Assembly (NCBI GenBank): GCA_949285835.1
Contig: CASEAR010000062.1
Location: forward strand, 1-49,479
Direction of reading: 5' to 3'
Origin: an uncultured Verrucomicrobiota bacterium
Lineage (GTDB): Bacteria; Verrucomicrobiota; Kiritimatiellia; RFP12; UBA3636
DNA: 49,479 bases
Shown: one piece after another, positions 30,600-32,539 of the stretch
How positions within the stretch are numbered: position 1 is the first letter of the stretch
Layout of the letters: each line of letters starts with the position of its first letter
The notes under the pieces: generated by a model
Database searches by the model: none
Seen by the model: only the letters and a program-made list of their open reading frames with translations
Told to the model about the DNA's origin: nothing
Made by a program: the position numbers and the translations under genes

Positions 30600-31526
30600 T
30601 CACATCCTGAAAAGCGTGCTTATAGACTGGTTGTTATGTATCCTTCTAATTGCCTCGCCGAACAGCTCCGCCACAGACAGCACAGTCACCGGCAGACTCT
30701 CTTCGTACTGCTGAGGCACCGTGTCCGTAACTATAAGTTCGGAAATTTCCGAACGAACCAGTCTGTCTATGCCCTTGCTGTTAAGCAGCCCGTGCGTAAC
30801 CGCCGCATACACCTTGCGCGCGCCGTTCTTTCTCACGAGATCTGCCGCAGCCGAAAGCGTGCCGCAGGTGCTCGTAAGGTCGTCGATCATCACCACGTCC
30901 CTGCCCTGAACGTCGCCGACGAGCGAAAACGCCTCCACCTCGGACGGCCCCCGGCGCTGCTTGGCGGCAATGGCAATCCCGCATCCCATCACCCTCGCGT
31001 AGCTGTACGCCGTTTTCACGCTGCCTGTATCCGGCGCAACAACCACCGGATCCTCCAGATTCTTGCTCTGAAGGTATTTCAAAATGACGGGATACGCATG
31101 AAGATGATCCACCGGAATATCGAAGTACCCCACTATCTGGGCCGCATGCAGATCCATCGTCAATATGCGGTTGGCGCCCGCCGCGACAAGGAGATTGGCG
31201 ACGAGCTTGGACGTGATCGGAACTCTGGGCTGGTCTTTCCTGTCCTGCCGCGCATAGCCGTAAATCGGCATCACCGCCGTAATTCTGGCCGCGGAGGCCC
31301 GCTTCATGGCGTCTATCATTATGAGAAGCTCCATGAGCATCTCATTCGGACGCCCGCAGACCGACTGTATGGCAAAGCAGTCCTCCCCGCGCACTCCCTC
31401 CTGTATCTTTACAAACGTTTCACCATCCGGAAACGATATTACGTCGGCCGCGCCGAGATCCACACCCAGATACGACGCTATGCTCGCGGCGAGCCGCGGA
31501 TTTGAATTCCCTGTAAAAATCTTCAC
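30600..31526 (-). CDS. prs: Ribose-phosphate pyrophosphokinase
   Basis: Makes PRPP from ribose 5-phosphate and ATP for nucleotide, His and Trp synthesis. 308 residues with F-P-D-G-E-T, the P-I-Y-G-Y-A-R-Q-D-R-K flexible catalytic loop, M-D-L-H-A-A-Q-I and the PRPP-binding D-D-L-T-S-T-C-G-T (usually D-D-x-x-x-T-G-G-T). The start is GTG at 31526, with GGGAAG five bases upstream. It lies 53 bases downstream of tRNA-Gln. Confidence 0.94.
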   Translation of the reverse strand: MKIFTGNSNPRLAASIASYLGVDLGAADVISFPDGETFVKIQEGVRGEDCFAIQSVCGRPNEMLMELLIMIDAMKRASAARITAVMPIYGYARQDRKDQPRVPITSKLVANLLVAAGANRILTMDLHAAQIVGYFDIPVDHLHAYPVILKYLQSKNLEDPVVVAPDTGSVKTAYSYARVMGCGIAIAAKQRRGPSEVEAFSLVGDVQGRDVVMIDDLTSTCGTLSAAADLVRKNGARKVYAAVTHGLLNSKGIDRLVRSEISELIVTDTVPQQYEESLPVTVLSVAELFGEAIRRIHNNQSISTLFRM

Positions 31527-31579: not shown

Positions 31580-31653
31580 TGGTTGCCCGACATGGATTCG
31601 AACCATGACTCAGGGCGTCAAAGGCCCATGTGCTGCCATTACACCATCGGGCA
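31580..31653 (-). tRNA. glnT: tRNA-Gln (TTG anticodon)
   Basis: A 74-base cloverleaf. The acceptor is TGCCCGA/TCGGGCA with A73 and an encoded CCA. The D stem is GTGT/GCAC, the anticodon stem TGGGC/GCCCT (outer pair T-T) carries loop CTTTGAC, and the T loop TTCGAAT is normal. Its first 44 bases also encode the last residues and the stop of ispE on the same strand. No promoter of its own was seen, so it is probably cut out of the ilvB-ispE-prs transcript. Confidence 0.95.
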
Positions 31654-32539
31654 ACGTCGAAACGACTCTGCTCCACACATCCCGCGGAAGCCGGCCCCGC
31701 ACCGCATCGGCATGCTCGCGGCTCTCCGCGAGCCCGAACACAGCAGATCCGCTCCCCGAAAGGAGTGCCGACAAAGCTCCGCTTTCCCTGAGCGCCAGGC
31801 AAAAGCGCTCGGTTTCCGGATAATATCTGCCGACTGTATTCTGAAGCCCGTTGAAAACCGTACGAGAAGCCTCGCGGACATCCCCGTTTCTCACGGAACG
31901 GACGGCATTCTTACATATTTCCGGGTCCGGAGTCAAGTCCGGAGTCCAGAGGGAATACATCCTGCCCGTAGAAACCGCAAATCCCGGGAAAACCACAACA
32001 AGCCAGAAAGGCGCCGCCGCCTTTTCGCCATGCCCGAAAACGGGCCGCACTCTCTCGCCCCGGCCTTCCATCACGACCGCCCCCCCGAGCAGCTGCGCGG
32101 GGACATCCGACCCCAGAGCCGCCGCCGCGCCAGTCAGGGATTCTCTCGAGGCCGCCGGCATCCACAACCGCCTGAGAGCCTCGACGGTTCCGGCCGCATC
32201 CGCACTCCCGCCGCCCATACCGGCGCCGATGGGCACGCGCTTTACAATGCTGATCCGGCAGCCCTTCGCCGTCCCGCAGAGATCTTTCATCATCAGCGCC
32301 GCCCTGACCGCGAGATTCTTTTCCGGAGGACATTTGCCGAGTTCGGAGGTATCCACGCCGTCGCCGGAGATGCTGCAGGACACGTCTCCGCCGTCCGTTT
32401 CGCAGACGGTCACAGTTTCAAACAGCGACACGGGCACCAGCACGCTGCGCAAATCATGATAACCGTCGCTTCGTTTACCGAGAATCTCAAGCGTAAGGTT
32501 TATCTTTCCGGGAGCGTCGACAGTAACAGATTTCGACAT
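31610..32539 (-). CDS. ispE: 4-diphosphocytidyl-2-C-methyl-D-erythritol kinase
   Basis: GHMP kinase of the non-mevalonate isoprenoid pathway. 309 residues from ATG 32539 (M-S-K-S-V-T-V-D-A-P-G-K-I-N-L). The A-P-G-K-I-N-L-T-L substrate segment, the ATP loop K-R-V-P-I-G-A-G-M-G-G-G-S-A-D-A-A and the late L-S-G-S-G-S-A-V-F-G motif are all present. The TGA stop lies inside tRNA-Gln, so the last dozen residues (P-D-G-V-M-A-A-H-G-P-L-T-P) are read from tRNA sequence and are beyond the conserved domain. An ATG at 32575 is an alternative start; neither has a strong ribosome site. It follows ilvN. Confidence 0.9.
   Translation of the reverse strand: MSKSVTVDAPGKINLTLEILGKRSDGYHDLRSVLVPVSLFETVTVCETDGGDVSCSISGDGVDTSELGKCPPEKNLAVRAALMMKDLCGTAKGCRISIVKRVPIGAGMGGGSADAAGTVEALRRLWMPAASRESLTGAAAALGSDVPAQLLGGAVVMEGRGERVRPVFGHGEKAAAPFWLVVVFPGFAVSTGRMYSLWTPDLTPDPEICKNAVRSVRNGDVREASRTVFNGLQNTVGRYYPETERFCLALRESGALSALLSGSGSAVFGLAESREHADAVRGRLPRDVWSRVVSTLPDGVMAAHGPLTP

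Follow-up and report, generated by a model that had tools for sequence, protein, structure and literature searches.

Internal promoters exist in the genes of bacterial operons, and Escherichia coli K-12 has ispE next to prs on the same strand. Overlaps of protein genes with tRNA genes, together with 'tRNA punctuation', are known from animal mitochondria (see also PMC4624183), and in E. coli an RNA-processing step leaves the arfA mRNA without its stop codon and places arfA under the control of tmRNA (see also PMC3989581). Here we analyse a bacterial locus that touches on each of these systems, an ispE gene whose stop codon lies inside a tRNA-Gln gene, in a 49,479-nt stretch of DNA (contig CASEAR010000062.1 of assembly GCA_949285835.1; hereafter the window). 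A literature search over listings and the opening parts of abstracts found no description of such an ispE/tRNA-Gln overlap.

The ispE/tRNA-Gln locus and the IspE fold

The first-pass annotation of the window had placed the ispE stop within tRNA-Gln, with 44 bases common to the two minus-strand genes, and sequence, ARAGORN and open reading frame (ORF) all agree with this exactly (Table 1). The stop codon TGA occupies 31612-31610 on the minus strand. The common stretch opens with the last two bases of a Leu codon (T|TG), whose first base (T) immediately precedes tRNA-Gln, and continues through 13 complete codons to the stop. Both genes are well identified: the protein is the CDP-ME kinase IspE, an enzyme of isoprenoid synthesis, and matches the Pfam GHMP kinase N and C domains (PF00288 and PF08544) above cut-off, TIGR00154 (9.7e-48) and IspE chains in the PDB (down to 3e-33), the top 18 Foldseek matches of its model are all IspE, and the tRNA has the cloverleaf, TTG anticodon and CCA end of a tRNA-Gln(UUG) and an Rfam tRNA score of 60.6 bits against a gathering threshold of 29. 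A longer ispE ORF, starting from 32575, is possible. The next gene downstream we take to be prs, from similarity and family knowledge.

Table 1. Coordinates of the features at the locus (positions in the window)
Feature	Position	Strand	Remarks
ispE CDS	31610..32539	-	309 codons plus TGA; ATG start at 32539
tRNA-Gln(UUG)	31580..31653	-	CCA encoded; ARAGORN, anticodon TTG
Stretch common to ispE and tRNA-Gln	31610..31653	-	44 nt; ispE TGA = tRNA bases 42-44
-35 hexamer TTGACT	31931..31936	-	IspE codons Leu202-Thr203
-10 hexamer AAGAAT	31907..31912	-	Codons 210-211; TG two bases upstream (extended -10)
Predicted 5' leader of short pre-tRNA	31654..31900	-	Start placed about 7 nt past the -10
prs	30600..31526	-	Next gene downstream of ispE/tRNA-Gln; named by similarity

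The genome from which the window comes (G000) has 37 distinct tRNA genes, among them one tRNA-Gln(TTG) and, elsewhere, one tRNA-Gln(CTG); since the assembly is 91% complete, a second tRNA-Gln(TTG) copy is possible. Ten other mechanical sense ORFs of this genome extend into tRNAs, and a Pfam domain was found in none of the eight of these that were searched.

An AlphaFold model of IspE, computed with a 30-sequence alignment (mean pLDDT 90.8), matches IspE structures and places the last beta-strand at residues 289-295, while the tRNA starts in codon 296. Because several IspEs of other classes also end near this place (for example with ...LWTFAAETL and then a stop), the tRNA appears to abut the last codon used by the fold. 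Most of the tRNA-encoded tail is modelled as disordered, residues 302-309 with a pLDDT under 50, and on this model it looks like a passive tail. There is no sign that IspE needs it: its length depends on which frame is read, and the model has low confidence at its end. For the same reasons the idea that the tail is a conserved functional peptide found no support, and the tRNA encoded there accounts for the pronounced codon bias seen at residues 299-306.

Distribution of the overlap among relatives

A first search of 59 relatives recovered IspE in 55, and a class-wide search of 345 genomes gave 245 with a match, 190 of them above cut-off. From the matching genomes of the former and picks among the listed matches of the latter we assembled a set of 142 genomes, in which the picks were meant to cover families and genera and are thus non-random, the large genus f3/g15 being merely sampled. 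DNA was taken for each genome, the ispE ORF identified by HMM and the tRNA by ARAGORN; loci found with a tRNA-encoded peptide as seed, which is biased towards overlaps, were excluded from all counts, though six of them are in the 30-sequence alignment. The sampled class is probably Kiritimatiellia, its named relatives being recorded as Kiritimatiellae, Lentisphaerae or Verrucomicrobia.

Conservation of the overlap, which had been put forward as a check on the first-pass reading, is widespread in this sample: where the ispE ORF is intact and the tRNA adjacent, 116 of 125 class genomes have it, and the tRNA is Gln(TTG) in 116/116. The ORF stops within the tRNA in 99 genomes, spans it entirely in 17 and stops 3-128 nt short of it in nine; the remainder of the 142 comprise 15 without a tRNA within 600 nt, one with a broken ORF (G018) and one at a contig edge (G193), the last two being excluded from the 125. 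Family f20, in which seven of eight genomes are spaced, accounts for most of the nine exceptions, the others being G330 and G231. All three frames of ispE relative to the tRNA occur (n=116), 73 genomes sharing that of the window and 32 and 11 having the other two; G014 is tallied among the 32 (frame 1) with an ARAGORN tRNA start one base early, and is treated as frame 2 in the tree. The stop codons that tRNA-Gln offers over all frames lie at positions 8-10, 13-15, and 42-44 or 48-50, and the ORF ends at tRNA position 10 (10 genomes), 15 (31), 26 (1), 37 (1), 44-45 (34), 50 (22) or beyond 74 (17). In family f4 the entire tRNA is inside the ORF in 15/15 genomes, and in one of these (G052, L112) the ispE stop codon follows immediately 3' of CCA; the ispE ORFs of G003 (L009) and G024 (L025) likewise contain the entire tRNA-Gln including CCA.

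Outside the class, 53 genomes picked from a phylum-wide search (387 genomes, 341 with a match) revealed no tRNA near ispE, except for a tRNA-Gln(CTG) 1230 nt off in one of them; beyond the phylum the comparison was made with E. coli K-12 only, and a plasmid tblastn with ispE returned 62 records. Within the class, neither a tRNA nor prs lies close downstream of ispE in G055, G043, G032, G023, G020, G051, G215, G279, G280, G207, G047, G057, G262, G265 and G107. On a FastTree phylogeny of IspE without the tRNA-encoded tail, which has many weak forks and an outgroup that is not clean, at least 20 changes are needed among the states frame 1, 2, 3, gap and none, against nine among overlap, gap and none, so that about 11 frame changes retained the overlap; the fewest changes of tRNA state on this tree are seven. 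Judged from these sequences, the ispE/tRNA-Gln overlap is beyond chance.

A promoter-like site inside ispE

A search for a tRNA-Gln promoter within ispE, as suggested at first pass, turned up a conserved promoter-like site about 255 nt upstream of the tRNA, which in the window reads TTGACT-18-AAGAAT (31936-31907). When six 120-nt intervals upstream of the tRNA were scored for sigma-70-likeness in the 116 overlap genomes, the interval from -241 to -360 had a mean of 12.1 (sd 2.5) versus means of 1.8-4.9 for the other five, and in 100 of these genomes, from 22 families, the highest-scoring site of the 950 nt upstream lies between -275 and -245, with a class-wide consensus near TTGACW-18-NATAAT. 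The codons that encode the site are skewed accordingly: Leu202 is TTG in 100/102 (four columns pooled), a codon that encodes 21% of the Leu residues in the rest of these genes, Asn at the columns of the site is AAT in 96/102 versus 43% elsewhere, and the largest codon anomalies in ispE outside the tRNA-encoded codons are at residues 203, 208, 211 and 207. Ten overlap genomes have GTG at codon 202. Synonymous shuffling lowered the mean site score from 12.35 to 7.36 in the 99 genomes with the stop inside the tRNA and from 14.77 to 7.33 in the 17 with the whole tRNA in the ORF; for single genomes p<=0.05 was reached in 69/116, and not in all of them because the protein sequence alone already biases the DNA towards such a site. 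Class-wide, then, the sequences hold a sigma-70-type hexamer pair beyond what the protein sequence gives, the site of the window's genome being a weak representative, and we infer that the motif acts as a promoter.

The site co-occurs with the tRNA across the sample. TTGAC is present in the region in 97/116 overlap genomes, 6/9 spaced genomes, 0/15 class genomes without the tRNA and 0/53 genomes of other classes, and a promoter score of at least 9 is reached by 111/116 overlap genomes (all except G315, G316, G322, G342 and G238), 5/9 spaced genomes and 1/53 of other classes. Among the 15 class genomes without an adjacent tRNA it is reached by 0/10 scorable ones, the other five having no residues to score. 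Co-loss of the promoter-like site and the tRNA is suggestive at the level of sequence: a test on independent pairs yielded four supported pairs of which about three agree (p 0.25) and is underpowered, and promoter loss is partly confounded with loss of the neighbourhood, because the tRNA-less genomes also lack prs and 5/15 are unscorable. In the incomplete genome G018 (L120) the ispE ORF is broken, possibly through a sequencing error, yet the promoter-like site (-253) and tRNA-Gln are kept.

In the window's own genome the site scores 9.6-10.0, where random 300-nt pieces have a mean of 7.1 and a 95% mark of 10.9; it is therefore unconvincing alone, its -10 (AAGAAT) being weak, and the case is carried by the relatives. 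Among the 37 tRNAs of this genome, 26 have their best -10 ending 13-35 nt upstream and tRNA-Gln(TTG) has its own at -253; a tRNA leader of about 250 nt is unusual. Many tRNA genes of the genome (L035-L064, L284-L290) have a TTGAC-like -35 and a TANNNT-like -10, with a spacer of 17-18 and the -10 ending 13-35 nt before the tRNA. A genome-wide pattern search combining promoter and tRNA start was unspecific, with hits in 137/345 genomes of the class and 150/387 of the phylum and many of the listed places outside ispE, and was set aside.

A probable nested tRNA gene and alternative readings

From the overlap and its frames, the fold, the promoter motif with its codon signature and the co-occurrence with the tRNA, we consider it likely that tRNA-Gln(UUG) is a gene nested in ispE with a sigma-70-type promoter of its own, that two transcripts cover the locus and that the arrangement has become an evolutionary trap. 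In an ancestor of the class, the tRNA would have come up against the last codon used by the IspE fold and the ispE stop would have been lost, so that translation would end at whichever in-frame stop the tRNA contains. A short transcript would start about 245-260 nt before the tRNA, without the ispE start codon, and be trimmed by RNase P to tRNA-Gln, and a long transcript that starts upstream would be translated into IspE with its short passive tail. Conflict between RNase P and the ribosome (a cut before the stop, or a tRNA kept unfolded by ribosomes) would be limited to the long transcript; should RNase P cut this first, ribosomes would stall at the codon broken just past the last beta-strand and would be rescued by tmRNA and SmpB. 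The overlap may persist for want of an easy way out: small indels would only switch which tRNA stop serves, and a new stop ahead of the tRNA would require either that a spacer be inserted or that residues of the last strand be given up.

The first-pass annotation had instead raised the possibility of a built-in competition, in which the ispE mRNA is the main source of tRNA-Gln and is contended for by the ribosome and RNase P, giving either IspE or tRNA and non-stop ispE mRNA, perhaps in a regulatory manner. Its premise holds, as an RNase P cut on any transcript with both genes would take off the ispE stop, and several observations are in keeping with it: the class-wide overlap, the 17 genomes with the whole tRNA within the ORF, a search that found nothing like a terminator between ispE and prs on their strand, and a genome that encodes tmRNA (tag ANEQFALAA) and SmpB. 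The conserved promoter-like site, however, would offer tRNA-Gln a separate route that does not depend on the ispE mRNA, and in 9/125 genomes ispE stops ahead of the tRNA; these are the two findings that had been named beforehand as telling against a necessary single-transcript competition, and their occurrence in the sequences weakens it. Nor was evidence of regulation by competition seen in the sequence. A clash thus remains conceivable on the long transcript and is not the main story, and as a general account we regard a single transcript as unlikely. Quite unlikely, too, is a bolder version in which ispE is a programmed non-stop gene, RNase P cutting after the last structural residue and output being set by race and rescue, which would tie isoprenoid synthesis to the translation state; if this were so, it would be obligatory in the family with the whole tRNA inside the ORF. 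The mitochondrial solution, an RNase P cut after U with adenylation completing UAA, agrees with the T before the tRNA in the window, which is in the right frame, but among the 73 genomes that share this frame only 41 have T (29 have C and 3 A), and the remaining 43 overlap genomes use other frames. Base and frames rule it out as a general mechanism, and for the locus itself we hold it to be extremely improbable.

Two other readings concern the promoter-like site. It could serve prs-rplY rather than the tRNA: prs follows in 88/116 overlap genomes and is missing at ispE from the class genomes without an adjacent tRNA. Yet the site is kept in all 23 overlap genomes without prs that have at least 500 nt of flank, some of which may have a prs too diverged or too distant for detection, and we judge this use of the site very unlikely. 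Alternatively, Leu202-Thr203 and the later Asn might be kept for IspE function, with the likeness to a promoter as a by-product; Leu202 and Thr203 are nearly invariant in the 30-sequence alignment, and an 'LTR..P' motif is associated with IspE. Function at the protein level would not account for the preference for TTG over other Leu codons nor for the bias in the -10 codons, LT is found there in 0/15 tRNA-less class genomes and 0/53 genomes of other classes, and in G231 the site seems to have relocated beside the tRNA, all of which leaves this reading highly improbable. In that genome (L220) 15 nt separate the ispE stop from the tRNA, the internal site has been lost, and a strong near-consensus TTCACA-18-TATAAT ends 14 nt before the tRNA.

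On the nested-gene reading, in much of a bacterial class the DNA of a protein gene would double as that of a tRNA gene and of a promoter-like site, and two non-protein elements would dictate amino acids of IspE, with the promoter-like site appearing to fix Leu-Thr and Asn in mid-protein and the tRNA the tail. Residues conserved in a protein alignment, such as Leu202 and Thr203, can then be kept for DNA reasons, an annotation rule that bans overlaps of CDS and tRNA would be wrong for ispE here, and the meeting of the ribosome with tRNA processing on one RNA becomes testable.

The arrangement shares features with each of the known systems. As in bacterial operons with internal promoters, a sigma-70-type site sits within a coding region, ahead of the gene that it would serve; unlike these, the site keeps a single location relative to the protein in 22 families, where it would dictate amino acids, and the gene served, tRNA-Gln, itself overlaps its host. 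As in E. coli K-12, ispE adjoins prs on the same strand, but there no tRNA is annotated between the two and no overlap exists; the order ispE-tRNA-Gln-prs may also occur in Pseudomonas. In animal mitochondria a CDS likewise extends into the following tRNA, whose excision would remove the encoded stop; the ispE case differs from it in being bacterial, in its likely internal tRNA promoter, in having a full stop inside or after the tRNA, and in a base before the tRNA that does not generally suit a stop completed by poly(A) (T in 41/73). As in arfA, an endonuclease (RNase III there, RNase P for ispE) could remove the stop and send the product to rescue, but for ispE we see no sign of rescue as regulation, and a separate promoter-like route is available to the tRNA. 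Set beside these systems, the locus is most readily understood as a nested gene whose promoter is embedded in its host, an arrangement grown hard to undo.
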